From Vulcanococcus limneticus LL (GTDB lineage: Bacteria; Cyanobacteriota; Cyanobacteriia; PCC-6307; Cyanobiaceae): 57,044 bases of DNA. Location: positions 1 to 57,044 of the forward strand of contig NZ_NQLA01000017.1 in the NCBI RefSeq assembly GCF_002252705.1, read 5' to 3'. The notes under the pieces were generated by a model. It saw only the letters and a list, made by a program, of their open reading frames with translations, ran no database searches and was not told the origin of the DNA. The first letter of the stretch is position 1. Every line of letters begins with the position of its first letter. Shown piece after piece: positions 28,905-57,044 of this stretch. Position numbers and translations under genes: made by a program.

Positions 28905-31898
28905 GTGTCTGATCCCGCCCCGCCGAGCTGGCATGCCCTCGCGCCGCAGGCCTGCCTGGCTGCCCTCGCGGCCGCGCCGCTGGGGCTGACGTCGGAACAG
29001 GCGGCCAGACGGCTGGCTCAGTCGGGTCCCAATCGGCTGGAGCCGGAGCGGGGCCGGAGCCGTGTGCGCATCCTGCTCGACCAGTTCGGCAACGTGATGC
29101 TCCTGTTGCTGCTGGCGGTGGCCGGGGTGGCGGCCTGGCTGGATCTCAGCGCCCAGCGGCTCCCGCGGGACACGATCGCCATCGGCCTGATCGTGGTGCT
29201 TAACGCAGCACTGGGCTACCTGCAGGAGAGCAGGGCCGAGCGGGCCCTGCTGGCCCTGCGCCAGCTGGCCCAGCCCCAGGTGCCGGTCTGCCGCGACGGT
29301 CAGTGGCAGGTTCTGGCCGCCGAGCAGCTGGTGCCGGGCGATCTGATCCGCCTGGCGGCGGGCGATCGGGTGGCCGCCGATGCCCGCCTGCTGGAGGGCA
29401 GCGAACTGGGGGTGCGCGAGGCGTCCCTCACGGGCGAGTCGGACACGGTGGACAAGCGGGCCGAGCTGGTGCTTCCCGCTGGCACGCCGGTGGCGGAGCG
29501 GCGCAACTGCGTGTTCCAGGGCACCGAGGTGGTGCGCGGCCAGGGCCTGGCGCTGGTGACCGCCACCGGCCTGGCCACCGAGCTGGGGCGCATCGCCCTG
29601 CTGCTGCGCCGCACGCCGCGGGAGCGCTCGCCGCTGCAGAGGCGGCTGGATCAGCTCTCGCAGCAGCTGGTGGGCGGGGCCCTGGTGCTGGTGGGGGCGG
29701 CGATGCTGGTGGGAGCCTGGCGGGGGCAGCCCCTGCTGGAGCTGCTGGAGATGGCGCTGGCGGCCGCGGTGGCGGTGGTTCCGGAGGGGCTGCCGGCCGT
29801 GATCACCGTGACCCTGGCCCTCGGCACCCAGCGGATGGTGCGCCGCCATGCCCTGATCCGGCGCCTGCCGGCGGTGGAGACCCTCGGTTCGGTGACGGTG
29901 ATCTGCACCGACAAGACCGGCACCCTCACCGAAAACCGCCAGGTGGTGCAGACCCTGCGGGTGGGCACCGTGAGCCTGGGCTGGGGGAGCGCGTCCAGGC
30001 TCGCTCCAGATCCTGCTGTTCCCGGCCAGCTCACTCGCAGCTCCTGGACCCGGGAGGTCCCCGGGCATCCGGCAGATCCCGAGCCCTTGCGACGGGAGGT
30101 GCTGCCACCACCGGCCGGGGCCCGGCCCGGCAGCACGTCCGGGGCCCTGTCGCTGCTGCTGAGCGCCGGGGTGCTCTGCAATGACGCCCGCTGGAGTGCG
30201 GCGGTGATCGCCGGCAGCCCGGCGGCTGGCGGGAAGCAGGCGACTGGCGAGCCAACGGCCTGCGCTGGGCCAACCCTTGCGGGGCCAACCCTTGAGGCGC
30301 GAACCCTGCTGGGCGATCCGACCGAGGGGGCCCTATTGCTGGCCGCCGAGCGCGCCGGCCTCGATGGCGAGGCGATCCGCCGGCGCCACCCGCGCTCGGC
30401 CGAGCTGGCCTTCTCGGCCGAGCGCCAGTGGATGGCGGTGGCGGTGCTGGACGGCGACGGCGCTCTCCAAGCTGGCCTGGCGGATCCGGCGGCTGGGACG
30501 GACTCCCTGGCCGCAGCCGGGCAGCTCGCCCTCGCCAAGGGGGCGCCCGAAGTGCTGCTGGCCCGCTGCAACCGCTGGCTGGATGGCGCTGGCGTGGCGC
30601 CGCTGGACGATCTCCAGCGGCGCTGGTGGCTGGAGCAGGCCCAGGGTCTGGCGGCTTCCGGCCAGCGGGTGCTGGCCCTGGCCTGCGGATCGCCCCGGGC
30701 GCTGGCCCAGTTCGACGCCAGCGACGACTGGATCCTGCTGGGGCTTGTGGGCCAGCGGGATCCCGCCCGGCCGGAGGTGCCGGAGGCCCTGGCCCGCTGC
30801 CGCAGCGCCGGCATCCGCGTGGTGATGATCACCGGCGACCATCCCCTCACGGCCCGCAGCATCGGCGCCGGCATCGGCCTGGCCGACCCCCAGAGCCCGG
30901 TGCTGCTGGGCCAGGAGCTGGAGCTGCTCAGCGACGCCGAACTGGCGGTCGCCGTTGCCGGCTGCGACATCTACGCCCGGGTGCCACCGGAGCAGAAGCT
31001 GCGCATCGTCCAGGCGCTGCAGGCGGGGGGCGCGATCGTGGCGATGACCGGCGATGGCATCAACGACTCCCCGGCCCTGCGCCAGGCCCATATCGGCGTG
31101 GCCATGGGGCAGCAGGGCACGGAGGTGTGCAAGGAGGCTGCGGACATGGTGCTGCTCGACGACGACTTCGCCACGATCGTGAGTGCCGTGGAGGAGGGCC
31201 GGCGGGTGCTGGTCACGATCCGCCGCTTCGTGACCTACGTGCTGGCCAGCAACATCGGCGAGCTGGTGGCGATCAGCGCCGCCCCACTGCTGGGTGTGCC
31301 GCTCACCCCCCTGCAGATCCTCTGGATCAACCTGGTGACCGACGGGGTGCCGGCCCTGGCCCTGGCCCTCGGCCCCGTGGATCAGGCGCTGATGCAGCGG
31401 CCGCCACTGCCGGCCCGCGAGCCGATCTTCGCCCAGGGCACCGGCGCCGCCATCCTGCGCATCGGCCTGGTGTTCGCGGCCCTCACCCTGGGGCTGATGC
31501 TGGTGGCGGCGCGCTCCGGAGCCCCCTGGCCCACGATGGTGTTCACCACCCTCTGCCTGGCCCAGCTGGGCCATGCCCTCTCGGCCGGCAGCGAGCGGCC
31601 CCTGCTGGCCACCAGCCCCCTGCGCAACCCCTGGCTGCTGGGGTCGGTGCTGCTCAGCGCCACGGCCCAGCTGGCCCTGCTGCAGGTGCCTGCCCTGGCC
31701 CGTTTCTTTCAGCTCACGCCCCTGACGGCGACCAACCTGGCCATCTGCCTGGGTTGCAGTGGGCTGTTCGTCGCCTACCTGGAGGCCGAGAAGGCCGTGC
31801 GCCTGTGGCGGCGGGCGCCGACCATCCAGACGCCGACCGTTCAGCTGGATCCGGATCAGACGCTCCCGGCTCAGTCAGCCCAGTGCGGGTCCAGATAG
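28905..31898 (+). CDS. P-type cation ATPase 2 (P2A, Ca2+-type), paralogue of ATPase 1
   Basis: 997 residues from GTG. Same architecture as ATPase 1: SWHALAPQACL start, actuator LTGESDTV (canonical TGES), PEGLPAV in M4, DKTGTLTENRQ, KGAPEVL, GDGINDSPA, SNIGEL in M5 and NLVTDGVPA in M6, so the Ca2+-type ligands are kept. It is about 75 residues longer than ATPase 1, mostly from Ala/Gly/Pro-rich insertions in the nucleotide domain near residues 365-460, including a local repeat (PTLAGPTLEARTL). The last 28 nt overlap PilZ protein B in antisense. Confidence 0.93.
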   Translation: MSDPAPPSWHALAPQACLAALAAAPLGLTSEQAARRLAQSGPNRLEPERGRSRVRILLDQFGNVMLLLLLAVAGVAAWLDLSAQRLPRDTIAIGLIVVLNAALGYLQESRAERALLALRQLAQPQVPVCRDGQWQVLAAEQLVPGDLIRLAAGDRVAADARLLEGSELGVREASLTGESDTVDKRAELVLPAGTPVAERRNCVFQGTEVVRGQGLALVTATGLATELGRIALLLRRTPRERSPLQRRLDQLSQQLVGGALVLVGAAMLVGAWRGQPLLELLEMALAAAVAVVPEGLPAVITVTLALGTQRMVRRHALIRRLPAVETLGSVTVICTDKTGTLTENRQVVQTLRVGTVSLGWGSASRLAPDPAVPGQLTRSSWTREVPGHPADPEPLRREVLPPPAGARPGSTSGALSLLLSAGVLCNDARWSAAVIAGSPAAGGKQATGEPTACAGPTLAGPTLEARTLLGDPTEGALLLAAERAGLDGEAIRRRHPRSAELAFSAERQWMAVAVLDGDGALQAGLADPAAGTDSLAAAGQLALAKGAPEVLLARCNRWLDGAGVAPLDDLQRRWWLEQAQGLAASGQRVLALACGSPRALAQFDASDDWILLGLVGQRDPARPEVPEALARCRSAGIRVVMITGDHPLTARSIGAGIGLADPQSPVLLGQELELLSDAELAVAVAGCDIYARVPPEQKLRIVQALQAGGAIVAMTGDGINDSPALRQAHIGVAMGQQGTEVCKEAADMVLLDDDFATIVSAVEEGRRVLVTIRRFVTYVLASNIGELVAISAAPLLGVPLTPLQILWINLVTDGVPALALALGPVDQALMQRPPLPAREPIFAQGTGAAILRIGLVFAALTLGLMLVAARSGAPWPTMVFTTLCLAQLGHALSAGSERPLLATSPLRNPWLLGSVLLSATAQLALLQVPALARFFQLTPLTATNLAICLGCSGLFVAYLEAEKAVRLWRRAPTIQTPTVQLDPDQTLPAQSAQCGSR

Positions 31899-44535: not shown

Positions 44536-45291
44536 GTGCAGATCTCCTATTTCCACACCTCCGAAGCCGTGCCGGCGGTGCGTCCCATGGCCGAGGGCGG
44601 CCCGGATGCCGCCGTGGCGATCGATGTGCTGCGGGCCACCACCACCATCGCCTGGTCGCTGCGCAATGGCGCCGAGGCGATCCAGGCCTTCGCCGACCTG
44701 GCGGAGCTGGAGGCGGCGGCCGCCGCCTGGCCGGCCGAGCGGCGCCTGCGGGCCGGCGAGCGGGGCGGCAAGCGCGTCGACGGCTATGAGCTGGGCAATT
44801 CGCCCCTGGCCGTGACACCGGAGCTGGTGGGGGGCAAGCGCATCTTCATGAGCACCACCAACGGCACCCGTTCCCTGGCGGCGGTGCGTGCCGTGCCGCT
44901 GCTCCTCACCGCCTGCCTGCCCAACCGCACGGCCGTGGCCCAGCGGCTGATCGCCGCCGGCGCCCAGCGGGTGTGGATCGTGGGCAGCGGCTGGGAGGGC
45001 GACTACTCCCTGGAGGACAGCCTGGCGGCCGGCGCGGTGATCTCGGCCGCCACCGAGCTGGCGGTGGCCCCCCATGTGGGTGTGACCACCGGCAACGACG
45101 AGGCCCTGGCGGCCCTGGCTCTGTGGCAGCAGTGGCGCCATGAGCCCGAGACCTGCCTGCGGGCCGCCAGCCATGGCCAGCGCCTGATCGGCCTGGGAGA
45201 CCACGATGCCGACTTCGCCTGCTGCGCCGCCGTGGACAGCCTGCCGGTGGTGCCGACCCAGACCAGCCCGGGCGTGCTCCAGCTGGTCTGA
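44536..45291 (+). CDS. comB: Probable 2-phosphosulfolactate phosphatase (ComB family)
   Basis: 251 residues from GTG, reading (M)[12 protein letters not shown]. ComB family motifs: [34 protein letters not shown] and [17 protein letters not shown]. In methanogens it dephosphorylates phosphosulfolactate on the way to coenzyme M. Cyanobacteria do not make coenzyme M, so the physiological substrate is uncertain, possibly sulfolactate metabolism or another phosphate ester. It is divergent from ubiD. Confidence 0.88.
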
Positions 45292-45348
45292 GGGCCGCCG
45301 GCGCCTCAGGCTGGCCGTGGGCCCCGTGGCTGGCCGCGGCGGCTCCCC

Positions 45349-45354
45349 TACAGT
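45349..45354 (+). promoter_or_regulatory. -10-like TACAGT upstream of the nitrilase-family gene
   Basis: TACAGT ends 24 nt before the GTG start at 45379. Confidence 0.4.
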
Positions 45355-45378
45355 GCCGCCGACAGCGAGACTCCAGCG

Positions 45379-46197
45379 GTGACAAGCTTTCTGGCGGCAG
45401 CCCTGCAGCTCACGAGCACGCCGGATCCCGAGGCCAACTTCGCCGCCGCCGAGGAGCAGATCGAGCTGGCAGCGCGCCGCGGCGCCGAACTGGTGGGCCT
45501 GCCCGAGAACTTCGCCTTCATGGGCGACGATGGGCGCCGGCTCGAGCTGGCCCCGGCCCTCGCGGAGCGCTGTAGCCGCTTTCTCGTCACCATGGCGCGC
45601 CGCTACCAGGTGACCCTGCTGGGCGGTGGCTTCCCGGTGCCCGCCGGCGAGCGGCTCACCCTCAACCGGTCCGAGCTGGTGGGCAAGGACGGGCAGCTGC
45701 TGGCCCGCTACGACAAGATCCACCTGTTCGATGTGGACCTGCCTGACGGCAACACCTACCGGGAGTCGGCCACGGTGCAGCCGGGCAATGAGCTGCCCCC
45801 CGTGGTGGAGGTGCCGGGCCTGTGCCGCGTAGGCCTGTCCATCTGCTACGACGTGCGCTTTCCTGAGCTGTACCGCCACCTGGCCGGCGCCGGCGCCGAC
45901 CTGCTGATGATCCCCGCCGCCTTCACCGCCTTCACCGGCAAGGACCACTGGCAGGTGCTGCTGCAGGCCCGGGCGATCGAGAACACGGCCTACGTGGTGG
46001 CCCCGGCCCAGACCGGCAACCACGGCGGCCGCCGCCAGACCCATGGCCACGCCCTGGTGATCGACCCCTGGGGCACGGTGCTGGCCGATGCGGGGGTGGC
46101 TCCGGGGCTGGCGGTGGCGCCGATCGATCCGGTGCACCGCGAGCGGGTGCGGGCCCAGATGCCCAGCCTCCAGCACCGCCGTCCCGCCCTGTTCTGA
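45379..46197 (+). CDS. Nitrilase-superfamily amidase (Nit1-like)
   Basis: 272 residues from GTG. The Glu-Lys-Cys triad is visible: E43 in GLPENFAFMGDD, Lys in RYDKIHLFDVDLP, and Cys in LSICYDVRFPELYR. The DVDLPDGNTYRES stretch is typical of the Nit1 branch, whose members hydrolyse deaminated glutathione (metabolite repair); omega-amidase activity is the alternative. It leads a compact plus-strand run with the cell-wall genes: the amidase gene starts 5 bp after its stop. Confidence 0.9.
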   Translation: MTSFLAAALQLTSTPDPEANFAAAEEQIELAARRGAELVGLPENFAFMGDDGRRLELAPALAERCSRFLVTMARRYQVTLLGGGFPVPAGERLTLNRSELVGKDGQLLARYDKIHLFDVDLPDGNTYRESATVQPGNELPPVVEVPGLCRVGLSICYDVRFPELYRHLAGAGADLLMIPAAFTAFTGKDHWQVLLQARAIENTAYVVAPAQTGNHGGRRQTHGHALVIDPWGTVLADAGVAPGLAVAPIDPVHRERVRAQMPSLQHRRPALF

Positions 46198-46202
46198 AGA
46201 CG

Positions 46203-47297
46203 GTGAGCGTGCGCGGCCGATCTCTGCTGGCGGCGGGTCTTCCCCTAGTGGCGGGCCTGGCCACGCTCTTCTCGGCCCTGCCGGCCTGGGCGGGCAGCGC
46301 GCTGGGCGCCTGGCGGATCAGTCGCGAGGGGCAGCTGGAGCTGCGCACCTCCCCCGACATCCAGATCCAGGCCTTCTACGAGTCGGGCCGCGGCCGCTCC
46401 GGGCCGCGCATCTGGGTGGACCTGCCCGGCGCGCCGATCCGCACCCGCACGATTCCGGGGGCCGGCCTGGTGCGCCAGGTGCGGATCGGCAAGCCAACCC
46501 CCTACGAGACCCGGCTGGTGCTGGAGTTCCAGCCCGGCACGCCGATCAACCCGGCGGACCTGCGCCTGGTGGGCACCGCCCGGGACCGCTGGCGCATGGA
46601 TCTCAAGGCCCTGGGGGCCGGCTTGGTGCCCCTGGGGGAAGGGGATGTGGAGGCCCCGAGCGCGCCCACCTGGCGCCAGGGTCCGCCGGCCACCGCCTTC
46701 GTGCCCCGCGGCTCGGTCAACGCCGGCAGCCTGCCCCAGGTGCCCCGGGGCCGCTTCAAGGTGGTGCTCGATCCGGGCCATGGCGGCCCCGATCCCGGGG
46801 CCGTGGGCATCGGCGGCCTGCGCGAGACCGATGTGGTGCTGGATGTGGGCCTGCAGGTGGCCCAGCTGCTCCAGGCCCGCGGCGTGCAGGTGCTGCTGAC
46901 CCGCACCTCCGAGGTGGATGTGGACCTGCCGCCACGGGTGGCCCTGGCCAACAACAGCGGCGCCGATGTGTTCCTGAGCATCCACGCCAATGCCCTGAGC
47001 ATGGCCCGCCCGGATGTGAACGGCATCGAGACCTTCTTTTTCCAGAGTTCCCTGTCCCGCGCCCTGGCCCAGGCCGTGCAGGAGCAGATGGTGGCCATCT
47101 CACCGGGCTCCCCCGATCGCGGCGTGCGGCCGGGCCGCTTCTTCGTGATCCGCCGCACCGTGATGCCCTCGGCCCTGGTGGAGATGGGCTTCGTGACCGG
47201 TCAGATCGACGCTCCGCGCCTGGCCGATGCCGGCTTCCGCCGCCGCCTGGCCGTGGCGATCGCCACCGGGTTGCTCAACCACCTCGGCGGCCGATGA
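46203..47297 (+). CDS. N-acetylmuramoyl-L-alanine amidase (AmiC type)
   Basis: 364 residues from GTG. Signal peptide (LLAAGLPLVAGLATLFSALP, ending in WAG), an AMIN-like beta domain to about residue 130, a Pro-rich linker, then an Amidase_3 domain with zinc ligands His in LDPGHGGPDPG, Glu in LRETDVVLD, His in SIHANAL, and the catalytic Glu in VEMGFVTG. It cleaves the stem peptide from MurNAc during cell separation, in the periplasm. Its TGA overlaps the murI ATG. Confidence 0.94.
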   Translation: MSVRGRSLLAAGLPLVAGLATLFSALPAWAGSALGAWRISREGQLELRTSPDIQIQAFYESGRGRSGPRIWVDLPGAPIRTRTIPGAGLVRQVRIGKPTPYETRLVLEFQPGTPINPADLRLVGTARDRWRMDLKALGAGLVPLGEGDVEAPSAPTWRQGPPATAFVPRGSVNAGSLPQVPRGRFKVVLDPGHGGPDPGAVGIGGLRETDVVLDVGLQVAQLLQARGVQVLLTRTSEVDVDLPPRVALANNSGADVFLSIHANALSMARPDVNGIETFFFQSSLSRALAQAVQEQMVAISPGSPDRGVRPGRFFVIRRTVMPSALVEMGFVTGQIDAPRLADAGFRRRLAVAIATGLLNHLGGR

Positions 47298-48217
47298 GCC
47301 GCCCGCGACCGACTGACTCTGGGGATCCCGGGAGCCAGCGTTCTGGAAGCCAGCGGGCGGCTGCCCCGATCGGCATCTTCGATTCCGGGGTTGGCGGGCT
47401 GAGCGTCTGGCGGGAGCTGGTGGCCCAGCTGCCCGCCGAATCCACGGTCTACGTGGCGGACCGGGCCCACGTTCCCTACGGCAACCGCAGCAGCGCCGAG
47501 ATCCGCCGCTTCAGCGAGGCCATCGCCGACTTCCTGGTGGCCGAGGGCTGCAAGGCGATCGTCGTGGCCTGCAACACGGCCTCGGCCGTGGCCCTGCACG
47601 GCCTGCGCGAGCGCTTTCCCGGCGTGCCGATCCTGGGCCTGGAACCGGCGGTGAAGCCGGCGGTGTCGCTGACCCGCTCGGGCGTGGTGGGGGTGATGGC
47701 CACACCGGCCACCTTCCAGGGGCGCCTCTACCGGGCCACCGTGGGCCGCCATGCCGCCGATGTGCGGGTGGTGGAGCAGGTGTGCATCGGCCTGGCGGAC
47801 CTGGTGGAGCGGGGCGAGCTGGAGGGGCCCGGCTGCGAGGCGCTGCTGCAGGGCTTCGTGGGGCCGATGCTCGCCGCCGGCGCCGACACGATCGTGCTGG
47901 GCTGCACCCACTACCCTTTCGTGATCGAGGCCATCCGCCGCCTGGCGGGTCCCGCGCTGGAGGTGGTGGATCCGGCGCCTGCTGTGGCGCGCCACCTGGG
48001 GCAGGTGCTGCGCCACTTTGCATTGGAGGCCCCGGCCGGGGTCGGCTTCCCGCGACACCGGTTCTTCACCAGCGCCGAGCCCGCCTGCTTCGATCGCGCC
48101 GCCGGTCGGCTGCTGGGCCTCCACGCCAGCAGCGAGGGCCTGCTATGGCGCGATTCGGAGCGCCAGGCCCTGATCCGGGAGGCCCAGCACTCCCGGCCAG
48201 CAGCGGGCGCCTTCTAG
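47294..48217 (+). CDS. murI: Glutamate racemase
   Basis: 307 residues starting in an ATGA overlap with the amidase stop. Supplies D-glutamate for peptidoglycan. Family motifs: IGIFDSGVGGLSV, YVADRAHVPYG, the two catalytic cysteines in VACNTASA and LGCTHYPF. A Ser/Gly/Pro-rich head of ~24 residues is extra. Coupled to the amidase, it forms a small cell-wall operon. Confidence 0.96.
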   Translation: MSRPRPTDSGDPGSQRSGSQRAAAPIGIFDSGVGGLSVWRELVAQLPAESTVYVADRAHVPYGNRSSAEIRRFSEAIADFLVAEGCKAIVVACNTASAVALHGLRERFPGVPILGLEPAVKPAVSLTRSGVVGVMATPATFQGRLYRATVGRHAADVRVVEQVCIGLADLVERGELEGPGCEALLQGFVGPMLAAGADTIVLGCTHYPFVIEAIRRLAGPALEVVDPAPAVARHLGQVLRHFALEAPAGVGFPRHRFFTSAEPACFDRAAGRLLGLHASSEGLLWRDSERQALIREAQHSRPAAGAF

Positions 48218-48220
48218 GAT
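48215..48220 (+). promoter_or_regulatory. -10-like TAGGAT upstream of sds
   Basis: TAGGAT ends 19 nt before the ATG of sds and starts with the murI stop codon TAG. Confidence 0.45.
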
Positions 48221-48239
48221 CGGCCCACCGCAGGGGGTC

Positions 48240-49211
48240 ATGGCAACGGTCGCAGAGCTGCTTCAGCCCGTCGAGGCCGACCTGGAGGCCCTGCTCAGCG
48301 ACCTGCGCAGCCTGATCGGCGCAGGTCACCCGATCCTGCAGGCCGCCGCCGAGCACCTGTTCAGCGCCGGCGGCAAGCGCCTGCGGCCCGGCATCGTGCT
48401 GCTGATCTCCCGGGCACTGGCGCCCGATGGCGAGCTGAGTGCTCGCCACCGGCGCCTGGCGGAGATCACCGAGATGATCCACACCGCCTCGCTCGTCCAC
48501 GACGACGTGGTGGACGGGGCCTCCACCCGCCGCGGCGTGGACACGGTCCACAGCCGCTTCAACCACCGGGTGGCGGTGCTGGCCGGTGATTTCCTGTTCG
48601 CCCAGGCCAGCTGGCACCTGGCCAACCTCGACGACCTCGAGGTGGTGAAGCTGCTCAGCCGCGTGATCATGGATCTGGCCGATGGCGAGGTGCGCCAGGG
48701 CTTGTTCCGCTACGACACCGGCCAGAGCTTCGAGACCTACCTCGAGAAGAGCTACTGCAAGACGGCCTCGCTGATCGCCAACAGCGCCCGCGCCGCCGGC
48801 GTGCTCAGCGGCCTGGCTGAGTCCCAGCTCGATGCGCTTTACCGCTTTGGTCGCCAGCTGGGCCTGGCCTTCCAGGTGGTGGACGACATCCTCGACTTCA
48901 CCGGCAGCGATCAGCAGCTGGGCAAGCCCGCCGCCAGCGACCTGGCCAGCGGCTACCTCACGGCTCCCGCCCTCTATGCCCTGCAGGAGCGACCGGCCCT
49001 GGCGGGCCTGATCGAGCGCGAGTTCAGCCAGGAGGGCGATCTCGAGCAGGCCCTGGAGCTGGTGCGGGGCAGTGAGGCCATCCCCCGCTCGCGGGTGCTG
49101 GCGGAGGGCTTCGCCAACGAGGCCCGCGAGGCCCTCACCTGGCTGCCCGCCTCCGAGTGCCGCAGTGCCCTGCTGGCCCTGCCGGAGTTCGTGCTGAGCC
49201 GGCTCTACTGA
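48240..49211 (+). CDS. sds: Solanesyl (all-trans polyprenyl) diphosphate synthase
   Basis: 323 residues. Makes the C45-type prenyl tail for plastoquinone. GGKRLRPGIVLL, the first Asp-rich motif HDDVVDGASTRRG, GDFLFAQAS, KTASLIANSARAAG and the second Asp-rich motif VVDDILDFTG are all present. Bulky and small residues before the first DDxxD fit a long-chain enzyme. It is complete. With ubiD nearby, the window holds two candidate steps of plastoquinone synthesis. Confidence 0.94.
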   Translation: MATVAELLQPVEADLEALLSDLRSLIGAGHPILQAAAEHLFSAGGKRLRPGIVLLISRALAPDGELSARHRRLAEITEMIHTASLVHDDVVDGASTRRGVDTVHSRFNHRVAVLAGDFLFAQASWHLANLDDLEVVKLLSRVIMDLADGEVRQGLFRYDTGQSFETYLEKSYCKTASLIANSARAAGVLSGLAESQLDALYRFGRQLGLAFQVVDDILDFTGSDQQLGKPAASDLASGYLTAPALYALQERPALAGLIEREFSQEGDLEQALELVRGSEAIPRSRVLAEGFANEAREALTWLPASECRSALLALPEFVLSRLY

Positions 49212-49219
49212 GCCGCTGT

Positions 49220-49894
49220 TCACAGCACCAGCTCCCGCAGCGAGTCCAGCCAGCGCACCCCCTCGGGATAGGCCGCCGGATCGCCGCCCTCCGGCAGCAG
49301 CACATGCACGCGGCAGCCGGCCGTGTCGGCCGCCTTGGCGCCGGCGGGCGAGTCCTCGAAGGCCCAGCAGCTGCCGGGCGCCTGGCCCAGCCGCGCCGCC
49401 GCCAGCAGGAACACATCCGGCGCCGGCTTGCCCTCCCGCAGCTCCGGATCGTCGCCATGGACGCGGACCCTGATCAGCTCCAGCCAGGGGTGGGGCGCGG
49501 CCTTGAGGGCCACGGCGGCTCGGGCACTGCTGGTGGCCAGGGCCATCGGGATCGCCAGCTCGGCGCAGCGCCGCACCAGCTCAGGCGCCCCTGCCATCGG
49601 CTGGGCGTGCACCAGCAGGGCCTCGGCGATCGGCTGGCGCACCGCTAGCAGGGCCTCGAGACTCGGCGGATCGCTCCTGACCGCGCCTTCTGCCTGCTCG
49701 GATGCCCCCGCGATCCAGCCGCGCACCTGCTCGGCGCAGTCGAGGCGGCGGCGGCCCCGCAGCTGCATCAGCTCCGCCGCATTGAGCTGGCGGCCGAAGT
49801 GGGCGGCGGCTTCTCGCCAGGCCCGGGCGTGCAGCGGCTCGGTGTCGAGCAGCAGGCCATCGAGGTCGAACAGGCAGGCGGCGGGTCGGGCCAT
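49220..49894 (-). CDS. HAD-family phosphatase (beta-phosphoglucomutase-like)
   Basis: 224 residues from ATG 49894 (TTG 49912 possible). HAD motifs: [14 protein letters not shown] (motif I), LATSSARAA (II), GKPAPDVFL (III) and [11 protein letters not shown] (IV). The cap is of the helical C1 type, as in beta-phosphoglucomutase and sugar-phosphate phosphatases. The substrate is undetermined. It is convergent with sds, 8 bp apart. Confidence 0.9.
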
Positions 49895-50109
49895 CGAGCC
49901 ATCCTGGGTCAACGCGGGCCTGGGTCAGCGCGGTGCACGGCACGGCAGCGCGAGTCTCTGCCCACGTCATGAACGCGATGCCGTTGGATTGGGCCGACCC
50001 GGTCGGCGGCCCTGGCAGCGGCGCGGCGACCCCGGCCCGTTACAGCGGAGTGTCCCGGGCCCGTTTCTCGCTTGAATGGCAGCTCGCCGACCACCGCGTC
50101 CCCGTCGCC

Positions 50110-52080
<1,971 letters not shown>

Positions 52081-52114
52081 CGGTGGCGGCGCGACCAGGC
52101 TGCGGGGGCGGGGG

Positions 52115-52861
52115 TCAGTCCCCGCCGGCGTGCCAGCGCTGGATCCCCTCGGCCAGGGCGTCGATCTCCCGCTGGCGCTGCGGATCGTCGGCCCAGCTTC
52201 CCAGCAGGTTCTGGCGCAGGCCGGCGCTGGCCGGGGTGAGGTGATCTCCCGACCGCTCCACCAGCCGTGAGCGGTCGCCGCTGCGGGCCTGCAGCACCGT
52301 CAGCAGCCGCTGGCTCTGGTCCAGACCGTCGGACTTGAAGCGCACCAGCAGGTTGCGGGGCTGGCGGTAGTGGGCCCCGGCCAGGCGCAGGGTCTCCTCT
52401 GGCGAGGGGCTGAACTCGCTGCTGATGCCCAGCCGGGGCCCCAGCTCCGCCAGCAGCGGCACCGAGCGCTCGGCGGAGAAGTTGTTGAAGCTCAGGGCCG
52501 CCAGGCCGCTGCAGGCCCTGCCGTTGTCCGGGGCCAGCAGGTGCAGCTTGCAGCCCAGGCTGTGGCCCAGCCGCAGGATTCCGCCAGCCAGCTCCAGGGG
52601 CTGGCGCTCACGGGCCTGACGGAAGGCGCGCCAGGCCTCGTTGGCCTGGGCCTGGTGGTCGAAGCCCGGCACGTAGCTCCAGGCCCGCACCATCAGGCCC
52701 TGCCGGGCCAGGGCCTCCAGCAGGCGCCGGTAGCTCAGCTGGGGCGTGGCGGCCAGGTAGCTGCCGCCGATGAACTCCACCAGGGCGCTGGGCCGAGGGG
52801 GCGTCAGCACCCAGAGGCTGCCCTGCTGCCGCCAGTTGCCCGCCAGGGGGCTGGCGCTCAT
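52115..52861 (-). CDS. DUF1350-family alpha/beta-hydrolase-like protein
   Basis: 248 residues from the ATG that overlaps the prxQ stop (ATGA). It resembles the DUF1350 family of cyanobacteria and plastids: LVEFIGGSYLAATPQLSYR at the start, VRAWSYVPGFDHQAQANEAW, LRLGHSLGCKLHLL (a nucleophile-elbow-like GHSLG) and LSFNNFSAERSVP. An alpha/beta-hydrolase fold is likely; no activity is established. It is translationally coupled to the peroxiredoxin. Confidence 0.82.
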   Translation of the reverse strand: MSASPLAGNWRQQGSLWVLTPPRPSALVEFIGGSYLAATPQLSYRRLLEALARQGLMVRAWSYVPGFDHQAQANEAWRAFRQARERQPLELAGGILRLGHSLGCKLHLLAPDNGRACSGLAALSFNNFSAERSVPLLAELGPRLGISSEFSPSPEETLRLAGAHYRQPRNLLVRFKSDGLDQSQRLLTVLQARSGDRSRLVERSGDHLTPASAGLRQNLLGSWADDPQRQREIDALAEGIQRWHAGGD

Positions 52862-53322
52862 GCGCTCTGCAGGGCCTCCAGGGCCCGACGGGCCTCGGCC
52901 ACGTGGGCCGGCGCGTTGAGCAGGTCGTTGAAGACGTGGCGGATCACCCCCTCGCCATCGATCACGTAGGTGACCCGCCCGGGCAGCACCAGCAGGCTGT
53001 TGGGCACCCCGAAGGCCTGGCGCAGGCGGTTGCCCTGGTCGGCCAGCAGGGGGTAGGGCAGGCTGTGGCGCTCGGCGAAGCGCCGGTGGCTCGCGGCATC
53101 GTCGCCGCTGACGCCCCACACCTCGGCGCCGAGCTCGGTGAGGACGCCGTGACTGTCGCGGAAGGTGCAGGCCTCGATGGTGCAGCCGGGGGTGTCGTCC
53201 TTCGGGTAGAAGAACAGCACCAGTGGCCGGCCGGCCAGCTGATCGCTGCGCCGCTCGATGCCGTCCTGGTCGCCCAGGGCGATCAGGGGAGCGCGATCAC
53301 CGACGCCAAGGGCCTTCGCCAC
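52858..53322 (-). CDS. Peroxiredoxin, PrxQ/Bcp type
   Basis: 154 residues from GTG 53322, which gives the family length; the open frame runs to 53715 but that part is antisense to the exonuclease gene. Peroxidatic and resolving cysteines are in TPGCTIEACTFRD (C-x4-C), the PrxQ arrangement, with the preceding FFYPKDDTPG. It reduces peroxides using thioredoxin. It is divergent from the exonuclease gene; a TAGGCT hexamer lies 22 nt upstream. Confidence 0.92.
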   Translation of the reverse strand: MAKALGVGDRAPLIALGDQDGIERRSDQLAGRPLVLFFYPKDDTPGCTIEACTFRDSHGVLTELGAEVWGVSGDDAASHRRFAERHSLPYPLLADQGNRLRQAFGVPNSLLVLPGRVTYVIDGEGVIRHVFNDLLNAPAHVAEARRALEALQSA

Positions 53323-53344
53323 GGGGTGCTTAAGCAGTAGATCC

Positions 53345-53350
53345 AGCCTA
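53345..53350 (-). promoter_or_regulatory. -10-like TAGGCT upstream of prxQ
   Basis: TAGGCT on the minus strand, 22 nt before the GTG. It supports the GTG start. Confidence 0.4.
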
Positions 53351-53399
53351 GGCAGCGGCTTGCCTGGCCTGGGATCATGGCGCGATCCAGGGAAGGGCC

Positions 53400-54524
53400 A
53401 TGGCCAGCGCGGGGGACCAGCAGCCGGAGCGGCAGACGCGCCCCGCCGCGGCCGAGTGCGACCCGATCCAGCCCGGCCCTGCGGTGTGGGAGCAGACCGA
53501 CCTGCTCTCCCTGGTCGCGACCCTGGAGCAGGCCGTCCCTCCGGAGCAGCCAGCTCCTGCCGCTGGCCTGCCCGACCCCCGCGCCCCAGGGGAAGCCGCC
53601 GCTGGCCCACCCCAGGAGCCAACAACACCATCGGATCAGCCGGCCAGCACCGAATCCGATCTGCTCCAGAGCGCGCAACCGCAGGCGGCGGCTTCCCCGG
53701 CTCCGGAGCCAGCACCGGCTCCCCAGGCCCCAGCCCCAGTCGCGCTGCCGGCGCCGCCTGCCGCGGAGCCCGTCCAGCTCCCCTCCTTCGTGGCTGGTGG
53801 CGGCCAGCCCCGCTGCCCCCAGCGCCTGCTGATCCTCGACACCGAGACCACCGGCCTGGATCCCGAGCACCACAGCTGCATCGAGCTCGGCGCCGTGCTG
53901 TTCGACGTGCCCCACCGGGCCGTGCTGAGCCAGGTGTCGTTTCTGATCCCTTGCCAGAGCAACCCCGCCGAAGCGGTGAATGGCATCCCGGCCGCCGTGA
54001 GCCGCTTGCCCCAGCCCTGGCGCTCCGGCCTGGTCTGCTTCGAGGCGATGCTGGAGGCCGCCGACGTGGTGCTGGCCCACAACGCGGCCTTTGATCGCCA
54101 GTGGTTCGGCCGGGGCGAGCTGCCCGCCATCCGCAAGCCCTGGCTCTGCAGCATGGAGGACCTGCGCTGGCCGGCCGAGCGCAACCTGCGGGCCACCCCC
54201 TCGGTGCGGGATCTGGCCCTGGCCTATGGCGTGCCGGTCTGGGCGGCCCACCGCGCCCTCACCGACTGCATCTACCTGGCCCAGGTGTTCGAGCGCTGCG
54301 CCGACCTGGAGGCCCTGCTGCAGGCGGGCCTGGAGCCCCGCCAGCTCTATCGGGCCCGCCTCTCCTATGAGGAGCGCCACAAGGCCCGCGAAGCGGGATT
54401 CCGCTGGAACGAGCCTGTCAGTGGCGCCTGGAGCCGCCGGCTCTCGGAGCGGGAGGCGGCCCTGCTGCCCTTCCCGGTGGTGCCCGTGCCGAGCGATGGC
54501 GCAGGGCTGCGTCGCTCCGCCTGA
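53400..54524 (+). CDS. DEDDh 3'-5' exonuclease (DnaQ-like) with a long disordered head
   Basis: 374 residues. The first ~135 are Pro/Ala/Gln/Glu-rich and look disordered. The exonuclease core follows with ILDTETTGLD (Exo I), AHNAAFDRQW (Exo II) and AAHRALTDCIY (Exo III). The C-terminal ~60 residues include SYEERHKAREAGFRWNEPVS, a small extra module seen after some bacterial exonuclease domains. A role in DNA or RNA 3'-end processing is likely; a Pol III epsilon subunit is less likely given the extra parts. Confidence 0.88.
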   Translation: MASAGDQQPERQTRPAAAECDPIQPGPAVWEQTDLLSLVATLEQAVPPEQPAPAAGLPDPRAPGEAAAGPPQEPTTPSDQPASTESDLLQSAQPQAAASPAPEPAPAPQAPAPVALPAPPAAEPVQLPSFVAGGGQPRCPQRLLILDTETTGLDPEHHSCIELGAVLFDVPHRAVLSQVSFLIPCQSNPAEAVNGIPAAVSRLPQPWRSGLVCFEAMLEAADVVLAHNAAFDRQWFGRGELPAIRKPWLCSMEDLRWPAERNLRATPSVRDLALAYGVPVWAAHRALTDCIYLAQVFERCADLEALLQAGLEPRQLYRARLSYEERHKAREAGFRWNEPVSGAWSRRLSEREAALLPFPVVPVPSDGAGLRRSA

Positions 54525-54683
54525 GGCAGCCCTGTCGCCGGAGGGGCTCCATCGGCTGAGGAACTCCGCCAGTTGAACAGCCCGTCTCACCGGCTCCGAT
54601 TCTCTTTCGCTTTCCGAAGCTGATCGGCGGCTTTGGCCCGCTCCGCTCTCGCCTGGCCAAGCTGGACGCATCACGCCGTGGCG

Positions 54684-54938
54684 ATGGTGAGGCAGCCCCC
54701 CTCCCACTGGTTTCACCGGGGTGCCCGCCTGCGGGAGCAGGTGCGGCGCTGGCAGGACATCCGCACCTGGGCCCGGTTGATCCGTGAGGCCGAGGCCCTC
54801 TGGCATGTCGATGTGCGCGACTTGCGGCGCCTCGGCGCCATGGAGCTGGGCCAGCTGCTGGAGGAGGTCCCGCCAGAGCTGCGGCCCCGCGTCAACCGCT
54901 GGCTCGCCTGCTATGGCGTGAGCACCCGCCTGACCTGA
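54684..54938 (+). CDS. Small basic protein, unknown function
   Basis: 84 residues from the ATG of MVRQPPSHWFH (a TTG at 54633 would add 17). It is rich in Arg, Trp and Leu, with helical patterns (REQVRRWQDIRTWARLIREA and LRRLGAMELGQLLEEVP) and no known motif. It is the last ordinary chromosomal gene before the region of short repeats and the tRNA remnant. The family is unrecognised. Confidence 0.5.
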   Translation: MVRQPPSHWFHRGARLREQVRRWQDIRTWARLIREAEALWHVDVRDLRRLGAMELGQLLEEVPPELRPRVNRWLACYGVSTRLT

Positions 54939-55149: not shown

Positions 55150-55178
55150 ACAAAAAAACCGCCTGGGGAGGGCGGTTG
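55150..55178 (-). terminator. Rho-independent terminator, minus strand
   Basis: On the minus strand AACCGCC, a short C-rich loop and GGCGGTT are followed by a run of seven T. It lies about 50 bp downstream of the tRNA-Pro fragment in the tRNA's direction and is probably the native terminator of that tRNA gene. Confidence 0.88.
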
Positions 55179-55226
55179 GATTCAGCCATCAGTTGGATGA
55201 CCTTGGGAATGGACCGGTGATTGTAA

Positions 55227-55273
55227 TCGGAGCGACAGGATTTGAACCTGCGACCCCCACTACCCCAAAGTGG
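55227..55273 (-). tRNA. 3' part of tRNA-Pro(GGG), probable attachment-site scar
   Basis: Reading leftward: anticodon stem CCACT, loop TTGGGGT (anticodon GGG), stem AGTGG, variable GGGTC, T-arm GCAGG-TTCAAAT-CCTGT, acceptor CGCTCCG and a discriminator A. All stems pair, with one G-U. The sequence 5' of the anticodon arm has no D-arm and no CGGAGCG acceptor strand, so the gene is only a 3' remnant of about 47 nt. This is the typical leftover when an element integrates at a tRNA gene. The native terminator is retained downstream. Confidence 0.85.
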
Positions 55274-55327
55274 CTCTCATCCTGCAAGAACCTGTGCCCT
55301 GGCTTGGCTTCGTCGAGTGTTCTTCTT

Positions 55328-55351
55328 GATGGTGGACCGGATGGTGGACCG
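55328..55351. repeat. Perfect 12-bp direct repeat, two units
   Basis: GATGGTGGACCG twice in tandem, 55 bp to the right of the tRNA fragment, in a 210-bp stretch (55274-55483) where I see no gene. It could be an integrase arm site, but that is inference. Confidence 0.7.
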
Positions 55352-55483
55352 ATCTGGTCTGTGGTCCTCACTGCTTGACGGTCGCAGAAGGCTTATCCCA
55401 GGCGGGCGTGTTGAGTTGTCGGGAGGCTTTTCTCCAGGCCGTAGCTGTTGGTGGAGCTTGAGCCTTGATTGGTGCAGGGCGAC

Positions 55484-55777
55484 TCAGGCCTCCACGAAGG
55501 GCTGGATTTGAGCCAGCTGTGGTGCGATCGCCCGGCGCTGCAGCTCCAAGTCATGGGCTGCCTGAGCTCGCAGCCAGTACCCCTCGCTCAACCCGAAGAA
55601 CTTGCTGAGGCGCAGGTCGGTGTCTGCCGTGACCCCCCGCTTGCCCTTCACGATCTCCCAGAGGCGGGTCTGGGGCACGCCGATCTCCTTGGCCACCCGG
55701 TAGACGGTCAGGCCCATGGGATCGAGGAACTCTTCGCGGAGCAGCTCGCCGGGGGTGATGGGGGGAAGCAGGTCCAT
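55484..55777 (-). CDS. higA: HigA-type antitoxin (XRE family)
   Basis: 97 residues from the ATG of MDLLPPITPGELL. The HigA/VapI pattern is clear: PGELLREEFLDPMGLT, then the HTH YRVAKEIGVPQTRLWEIVKG, RGVTADTDLRLSKFFGLS and WLRAQAAHDLEL. It neutralises HigB and usually represses its own operon. It follows higB by 22 bp on the same strand (toxin first, as is normal for higBA). It contains a HIP1 octamer at 55524. Confidence 0.9.
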   Translation of the reverse strand: MDLLPPITPGELLREEFLDPMGLTVYRVAKEIGVPQTRLWEIVKGKRGVTADTDLRLSKFFGLSEGYWLRAQAAHDLELQRRAIAPQLAQIQPFVEA

Positions 55778-55799
55778 GGCGCCCTCCTGGGCTGGCGGG

Positions 55800-56078
55800 T
55801 CAGTGGTAATCGACGATCTCGACGCCTTCTGGGCCGGCCTCACTCCAGGTGAAGCAGATCCGCCATTGCCCGTTGATGCGGATGCTGTGCTGGCCCCGGC
55901 GGTCGCCCTGGAGGGGCTCCAGGCGGTTCCCAGGGGGAACGCGCAGATCGTCCAAGGTGGCCGCGATGGTGAGCTGCAGGAGCTTGCGGCGGGCCACCTT
56001 CTCGAAGGCAATGAACCGCCGGACGCGCACACCGCTGGCTAGGGCCTGGGTGTCCGCACAGCGGAACGACCGGATCAT
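55800..56078 (-). CDS. higB: HigB-type toxin (RelE-fold mRNA interferase)
   Basis: 92 residues. Family pattern: MIRSFRCADTQAL, then LDDLRVPPGNRLEPLQGDRRG, QHSIRINGQWRICF and the C-terminal VEIVDYH. Ribosome-dependent mRNA cleavage is the family activity. First gene of the higBA unit, with no disruption visible. Its upstream side abuts the truncated phage-type gene. Confidence 0.9.
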   Translation of the reverse strand: MIRSFRCADTQALASGVRVRRFIAFEKVARRKLLQLTIAATLDDLRVPPGNRLEPLQGDRRGQHSIRINGQWRICFTWSEAGPEGVEIVDYH

Positions 56079-56604
56079 GTCCCGATACTAACGACCTCCG
56101 TAAGCACTCGTCAGCCTCGCCTCCTCTGCCTTCCCCGGCTGATGAGGCGACCCTGCCATAGCTGAAATGCAGGGAGGGGGTGGCCAGGGCGGCGGTCTCC
56201 GCGAAGGTGTCGCCGTGCCGGCGGAGGTAGCCCTTGGCCTGGGCCGCCGCGGCGGTGACGGCATCGAGGGGGATGGAGACATCGAGCCGGCCGCGCTCGG
56301 GGAGAGCCTCGTCGGTGAGGTCGCTGGCGGCACCCAGGCCCAGGCGGGAGGAGCGGCCCAGCAGGGTGCGGAGCGCCTTGTCGTAGCGATCGATCCGGTC
56401 CGGGCGGAAGGCGGGCACCAGCTGCTGGAACTCGCGCAGCAGGGCGAGGTCACGCTCCGCGGGGTCGCGGTAGGGGGCGCGGAGGTGGATGCGGGCCCGG
56501 CGCACCAGGCGGTTGAAGCTGGCATCCATCACCCCGTGCAGGCGGGTGATGGCGTCGTCCTCGAGGGAGCGGAGGCGCTGGTTGTAGCGCTCCAGGAGGT
56601 TCAC
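55840..56604 (-). pseudogene. Truncated phage head-morphogenesis-like gene
   Basis: The frame starts GTG (MNLLERYNQRLRSLEDDAIT) in a GTGA overlap with the preceding stop. About 155 residues look like a genuine helical protein resembling MuF-like/minor capsid proteins (AERDLALLREFQQLVPAF, LDAVTAAAAQAKGYLRRHG). Beyond roughly 56110 the frame becomes Arg/Pro/Gly-rich and overlaps higB in another frame, so the native 3' part is missing and the nominal stop at 55840 is accidental. The phage assignment is by pattern and by its pairing with the upstream fragment. Confidence 0.55.
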
Positions 56605-56801
56605 GGGGTCCGGGCGGCTCGGCGCTCTGCACGACGCTGCTCGGCCTTGGCGGCCCGCTCGGCCATCACCCGGGCGCGGTTCTCCCGGAACTTGCGGATG
56701 GTCTCGGGGTCGCTGACTGCAACGGTGGCGGGCAGGTCCCTGTAGTCAGGATCCAAGTCCGAAAGGATGAGGCCCTTGCGGACCCAGCCAGAGTGGGATG
56801 G
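56601..56801 (-). pseudogene. 3' end fragment of a phage-type gene (possibly portal)
   Basis: A 66-codon open stretch with no start. It reads WVRKGLILSDLDPDYRDL, TVAVSDPETIRKFRENRARV, then a very basic Ala/Arg/Glu tail ending AARTP. Its TGA overlaps the next gene's GTG, the tight overlap typical of phage structural operons, in which the gene before a MuF-like protein is usually the portal. The upstream part has been replaced by the AT-richer sequence. Confidence 0.45.
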
Positions 56802-57044
56802 TCACAGGTTGCACAATATCAAATTAACTTATACATGTCACATAGTTATAGGCGGCTATCTAGTTTTCCTTTGCGTGAGAGCAAAGCGCCGGTGCTGTCT
56901 GTATTTTCGCATCTGGCAACCAGGGATGTCCGCGATATAGGCAATTGCGGTGACTTTCAGGAAAGTTGCCACTCTTGGGCTGCTCTTCAAGCAGCCTGAG
57001 CCAATGGTACCGCCAGTGCCGACTGCGGCTCTTCTGGTGGCCTG
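56802..57044. other. AT-richer block at the window edge, possible mobile-element end
   Basis: Composition changes sharply from the GC-rich chromosome; bases 56815-56880 are especially AT-rich. No gene is certain: a plus frame (56793-56999, 68 aa) and a minus frame open from the edge to 56856 are both unconvincing, though the minus frame (ATFLKVTAIA) vaguely recalls sequences next to insertion elements. Two small hairpins are present, ACTTTC-AG-GAAAGT near 56953 and GGCTGCT-CTTCA-AGCAGCC at 56978-56996. Confidence 0.4.

Follow-up and report, generated by a model that had tools for sequence, protein, structure and literature searches.

A truncated tRNA-Pro(GGG) gene near the end of a contig

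The window analysed here is the whole of contig C85 (57,044 nucleotides) from the draft genome of Vulcanococcus limneticus LL, which comprises 3,548,884 bases in 160 contigs. Close to its right end lies what appears to be half of a tRNA-Pro(GGG) gene, which raises the question of how this gene came to be divided and what the DNA beyond it is. A first-pass annotation had described a 3' part of the gene on the minus strand, a T-run terminator downstream and no 5' half, and all three observations were borne out. The 47 nt at 55227-55273 form the anticodon arm, T-arm and acceptor 3' strand; a terminator-like site lies downstream, which we take as the native terminator of the original gene, left beside the remnant; and no 5' half is present upstream of the repeat at 55225-55273, where the window shares nothing with an intact gene. 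Coordinates of all features are collected in Table 1.

Scanning the window with Rfam at the gathering score gave zero tRNAs, and with a loose threshold the remnant reached 19.8 bits (cut-off 29), compared with 60.4 bits for the intact copy on a second contig, C41. ARAGORN alone called a 75-nt tRNA-Pro at 55227-55301, which we rejected as a false full-length gene because of the lack of any likeness to the intact gene upstream of the repeat, in line with the Rfam scores; errors of this type are known for tRNA fragments, according to PMC9897764. A weak match to isrN at 55154-55223 (14.5 bits versus a cut-off of 44) was likewise set aside as chance.

Table 1. Features at the remnant in the window and on contig C41; locations lacking a contig name refer to the window.
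Feature	Location	Strand	Evidence or remark
Host flank gene, 101 aa	54633..54938	+	conserved beside tRNA-Pro(GGG) in the genus
Terminator-like site	55157..55177	-	resembles sequence 3' of the intact tRNA in G016
tRNA-Pro(GGG) 3' remnant, proposed attR repeat	55225..55273	-	tRNA part 55227-55273, 47 nt
Proposed element DNA, remnant-side end to contig end	55274..57044	.	absent between tRNA and flank gene in 20 empty-site relatives
Putative integrase arm site	55331..55351	+	GGTCCAC doublet on the tRNA strand, with a period of 12; the identical 21 bp recur at C41:13662-13682
HigA-like antitoxin, 97 aa	55484..55777	-	phrog_1381, E 1.7e-22
HigB-like toxin, 92 aa	55800..56078	-	PF05015, E 4.4e-15; phrog_3066, E 3e-28
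Phage minor head protein gene, N-terminal fragment, remainder missing	56155..56604	-	55% over 138 aa to the minor head gene of the related phage contig (L089:7753-7340)
HsdM, HsdS, HsdR (Type I restriction-modification)	C41:437-7460		profile matches; end 437 bp from contig end
Prim-Pol/AAA primase, 940 aa	C41:8939-11761
xis-like ORF, 96 aa	C41, downstream of integrase		named by position only; no Pfam or PHROG family match
Tyrosine integrase, 348 aa	C41:12613-13659		phrog_1 integrase, E 4.3e-13

The intact gene and the empty site

It had also been predicted that the intact tRNA-Pro(GGG) lies beyond the window, with everything to the right of 55273 belonging to, or having replaced, an integrated element, and an integrase next to the intact gene had been named as a check; each of these expectations agrees with what we found. 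The intact gene is at C41:13789-13862, and 55225-55273 matches C41:13787-13835 at 49 of 49 positions, this being the only other strong match in the genome. The exact 49-bp repeat extends from the 5' edge of the anticodon stem to 2 nt beyond the tRNA, and a terminator-like hairpin with a T-run follows the intact gene. The remnant and the intact gene are on the minus strand of their respective contigs, and we set the relative orientation of C85 and C41 by collinearity with the complete genome G005, in which window 44611-54932 and C41 13786-24761 flank one intact tRNA for ~10 kb on each side (20 kb read). The locus has the form of a tRNA-targeted island, an intact tDNA with its own 3' fragment in the same orientation.

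Comparison with 24 other genomes of the genus identified the uninterrupted site. In 20 of the 24, an intact tRNA-Pro(GGG) has relatives of the C41-side and C85-side genes as its two neighbours. The distance from the tRNA to the matching portion of the C85-side gene is 55-343 nt in 18 genomes and 687 and 794 nt in two, and the sequence right of 55273 does not occur at this place. In the remaining four, the tRNA and flank gene are on different contigs (G007 and G017), the contig stops at the tRNA (G022) or no match to the flank genes was obtained (G021). The flank gene in the window had tblastn matches in 22 of 29 loci (L013-L041), including 96% over 92 aa in the nearest relative, G016, where the two flank proteins match at 88% and 96% and the tRNA has the same sequence as the intact gene on C41. 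The first-pass annotation had proposed a search for such an empty site and had also listed an intact syntenic tRNA-Pro(GGG) in uninserted relatives as a refutation; this gene is the expected attB, and its presence in 20 of 24 genomes supports the reading. Together with the 49 identical bases, the intact syntenic gene in these relatives excludes a chance origin of the remnant.

In G007 a decayed tRNA-Pro(GGG) remnant lies by the flank gene (L072:8014-8062) and an intact tRNA near the end of another contig (L073:8572-8645), so that G007 has probably undergone a separate insertion at this site.

An integrase beside the intact gene

The integrase on C41 adjoins the intact tDNA, as is expected of an island. 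It is recognised by PHROGs and not by Pfam PF00589, with zero families returned from Pfam-A, and its placement among the tyrosine recombinases is based on the PHROG profiles and on motif order. Its motifs GLRPHE, TKTGN, YTLRHA, MGHS and TRTY align with relatives in G007, G005 and contig C1 of the same genome, and the catalytic residues R, K, xxR, GH and Y of the tyrosine recombinase consensus occur in that order, with Y replacing the usual first H of HxxR. A PDB sequence search did not recognise the protein and gave one weak, unrelated match. PF00589 detected five integrases in the genome, one of them that on C1; the integrase next to the intact tRNA-Pro is not among them, nor is that of a second element on contig C36, described below. 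Relatives of the C41 integrase at 34-39%, often of ~400-430 aa, are present in 23 of the 24 same-genus relatives (all but G019) and on the genome's own C1; these may represent a conserved resident recombinase.

On the window side, 55274-57044 contains an arm-like motif and a fragment of a phage gene, and with C41:1-13835 this gives at least ~15.6 kb of sequenced element DNA. The head ORF in the window itself has no Pfam or PHROG match; the 291-aa head protein of a related phage contig (see below) is recognised by minor head and head morphogenesis PHROGs through residues ~119-263, which are mostly missing from the window fragment. This fragment matches the C36 element at 66% over 61 aa, and searches of annotated phages and of the 24 other genomes of the genus returned no match. 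A second copy of 56780-57044 was not found in the genome, and by eye 56800-57044, at the contig end, is richer in A+T.

Related elements with different defence genes

A complete element of 21,054 bp is present in the same genome at C36:31633-52774 (L096, L097), inserted in tRNA-Ser(TGA). It is bounded by the intact tRNA-Ser(TGA) at 52688-52774 and, at 31633-31694, by 62 bp that repeat the 3' part of this gene exactly, and portal and head gene fragments lie beside this remnant, as a head fragment does in the window. The C36 primase matches that of C41 at 90% over 837 aa (96% over the best 637), while the integrases match at 27-30%. Using PADLOC profiles, its cargo was found to be HMA-like: a DUF499 protein had HmaC as best match and a methylase HmaB, with the helicase matching PLD_Helicase best and HmaA fifth.

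We then searched 300 genomes of the family with the primase, obtaining matches at E <= 0.001 in 40 (own genome included) and long matches (at least 629 of 940 residues) at 10 places in nine other genomes, and examined the regions in eight of these nine (all but G286). The order tRNA, integrase, primase was seen in only two of the eight. In G058, from a third genus, it starts at tRNA-Pro(GGG) and continues in the same order to the contig end, with matches of 43% for the integrase, 37% for the xis-like ORF and 53% for the primase. In G102, a complete genome from another genus, a ~36-kb element occupies tRNA-Ser(TGA) (G102:C1:412550-448494; L148, L138, L139) and leaves a 58-nt fragment (88%); its integrase matches that of C36 at 69%, a primase (46%) is present, and its cargo comprises six BREX proteins by profile match (BrxA, BrxB, BrxC, BrxL, PglX and PglZ). 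An anti-restriction-like protein (phrog_7245) is also encoded in the G102 element.

Among the other six genomes, G063 and G070 have tRNA-Pro(TGG) and an integrase relative arranged otherwise, in G192 a tRNA-Pro(TGG) is present and no integrase relative was found, in G263 and G296 the integrase relative is present and no tRNA was found, and the 13-kb contig of G198 yielded neither. HsdM and HsdR matching those of C41 at 72-93% lie near the related primases of G070 (L136:128-5716) and G063 (L145), both of other genera; the G070 HsdR is cut by the contig end. No relatives of phage portal, head or terminase genes were found in the stretches from the eight genomes, so head and portal stubs were seen only in the window and C36. 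Known defence genes lie inside the C41, C36 and G102 elements, as judged by profile matches, which is the mark of a mobile defence island.

Probable phage origin of the element

A 52,226-base contig from IMG/VR, IMGVR_UViG_3300032286_001250, encodes a relative of the C41 integrase (80% over all 348 residues), of the xis-like ORF (69%) and of the primase (52%), in addition to DNA polymerase, Dda-like helicase, tail, terminase and portal genes. It also has a tRNA-like stretch that agrees with the tRNA at 96% over 50 nt altogether and, beginning with the anticodon loop, without interruption. In the surrounding 17 kb ARAGORN detected no tRNA; since the 3' part of a tRNA is present without a tRNA gene, this stretch is attP-like. 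The late genes of the phage contig point to the att site, as does the head fragment in the window. A MAG record from 'LacPavin' has an intact tRNA-Pro(GGG) together with an integrase relative that is missing its middle part.

The resemblance of the integrase, xis-like ORF, primase and head fragment to this one phage contig, with its tail, portal and terminase genes, would suit a complete temperate prophage whose late genes are on unplaced contigs, with the restriction-modification system and HigBA as extras. This version of the phage-derived reading is nevertheless unlikely. Searches of the genome with the phage terminase and a 953-aa phage protein, run without a positive control, gave no match, and the sole portal match is on C36, where it is truncated and belongs to the other element. 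The head gene in the window is cut ~880 bp from the proposed attR, where the phage would have tail genes, and in the C36 sibling, a complete element of 21 kb, the late genes are represented only by pieces of the portal and head genes.

Proposed pairing of the two ends

C85 and C41 are separate contigs of a 160-contig draft with no bridging contig, while for C36 and G102 both ends are seen on one continuous replicon. The two contigs do share the 21-mer GGTGGACCGGATGGTGGACCG, at window 55331-55351 and C41:13662-13682, and these are its only exact matches in the 3.55 Mb genome; another site differs from it at 2 positions, and a reversed pattern, searched as a control, had 0 matches. The 21-mer contains a GGTCCAC doublet, and on the integrase side of C41, C36, G102, G058 and the phage contig, doublets with a period of 11-12 are found ~103-119 nt beyond the 3' end of the tRNA. 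The doubled words vary between elements, that of the phage differing from that of C41 by one base, and in all three elements with known or proposed two ends (C85, C36 and G102) the remnant side carries the element's word too, again as a doublet. In the phage contig the doublet is on one side of the att core only, with a single copy on the other. The doublets had been spotted by eye before counting and the search stretches (147-206 nt) were chosen knowing the C85 and C41 distances. Some doublet was present in 11% of random 190-nt stretches, and 20 of 200,000 random pairs shared a word, in a control pool that includes the doublet loci themselves. We read the GGTCCAC doublets as putative integrase arm sites, and we infer that C85 and C41 carry the two ends of one element.

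The remnant could instead be the scar of an older, different insertion, with the C41 element entering separately. The contigs are not joined, the head fragment in the window is decayed, and the site seems to have been struck more than once in the genus, given the split across contigs in G007 and G017. Against this, the two ends have in common 49 bases and the 21-bp motif, neither of which has another exact copy, and a single phage contig encodes relatives of genes at either end, which leaves two insertions only a slim chance. A partial tRNA duplication arising by chance or recombination without a mobile element can be dismissed, for while genomes do contain partial tRNA copies, here an integrase adjoins the intact copy, the identity begins at the anticodon arm and is followed by the shared motif and a fragment of a phage gene, and relatives have empty sites.

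Proposed course of integration

Because of the repeat, the integrase beside the intact tRNA, the empty site, the shared 21-mer, the attP-like phage contig and the like layout of the C36 and G102 elements, where both ends are seen, we conclude that the window holds the remnant-side end of a phage-derived element, with 55225-55273 as its attR and the tRNA gene rebuilt at the integrase end (probability about 0.93). The overall reading of the first-pass annotation, a 3' tRNA copy at one end of an integrated element with the tRNA re-formed at the other, is thereby supported as far as a draft genome allows. Its view of the letters alone could not reveal the phage derivation, the defence genes or the sibling element.

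Integration would proceed by the tyrosine integrase recombining an attP, which carries the 3' portion of tRNA-Pro starting with the anticodon loop, with the chromosomal tRNA-Pro(GGG). The gene would be restored at the integrase end (now C41) with the 3' half and terminator borne by the element, and the original 3' half and terminator would move to the opposite end, in the window, with arm sites (the GGTCCAC doublets) on both sides of the core. On its C41 side the element would have the integrase, the xis-like ORF, the PrimPol/AAA primase and the Type I restriction-modification genes, and on its window side HigBA and the truncated head gene. The integrase is predicted to be active and the cargo may act in defence.

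More tentatively, and at slightly less than even odds, the window end may belong to a family of picocyanobacterial mobile defence islands derived from a temperate phage, which would have kept the integrase and PrimPol primase, eroded the late genes to portal and head stubs, and taken up exchangeable defence systems in their place. Its members would insert in tRNA-Pro(GGG) or tRNA-Ser(TGA) and have an arm word of their own at both ends, by which ends could be paired across contigs. The picocyanobacterial label and the host of the phage contig are both presumptive, and the related elements, with their differing defence genes, we treat as a lead and not as a result. Among the literature matches listed, the titles and opening parts of abstracts contain no description of these elements. 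With this analysis, one end of a mobile element is located to the base in a fragmented genome and a spurious tRNA call is eliminated. It also brings out two elements of a single genome with a common primase but different integrases, tRNA targets and defence genes, which bears on how these bacteria exchange anti-phage systems.

Comparison with known systems

Hackl et al. 2023 are said to have stressed nutrient functions as the cargo of tycheposons. In contrast, the cargo here consists of Type I restriction-modification, HMA-like and BREX genes, together with phage head remnants. The likeness is one of layout, as tycheposons, described in PMC10872708, have the same tRNA border, tyrosine recombinase and variable cargo, and the C41 end has both a tRNA border and a tyrosine recombinase. 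The P2-like phages and P4-like satellites of PMC9122126 are likewise phage-type mobile DNA with exchangeable anti-phage systems, although the phages and hosts are different.

In PMC6337551, a Synechococcus is reported to have two predicted defective prophages, one of them flanked by a 12-bp repeat, which does not form part of the tRNA repeat described here. The only matches of the C41 integrase in the phages collection were three records of the cyanophage PSS2 integrase, which at 31% over 47% of the query is no close relative.

A close parallel is with the Islander islands. According to PMC4383910, a tRNA gene is split on integration and made whole again by element sequence, and the fragment pushed aside marks the end, with 2083 anticodon-centred and 1836 T-stem-region islands listed, so the anticodon-centred class of site is common. 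Elements of this class have an intact tDNA and displaced 3' fragment in the same orientation, an integrase beside the intact tDNA and an att core from the anticodon loop, and we see no difference in principle from the element described here. The mechanism of insertion is therefore ordinary, and the new parts are the host, the integrase sequence and the cargo.
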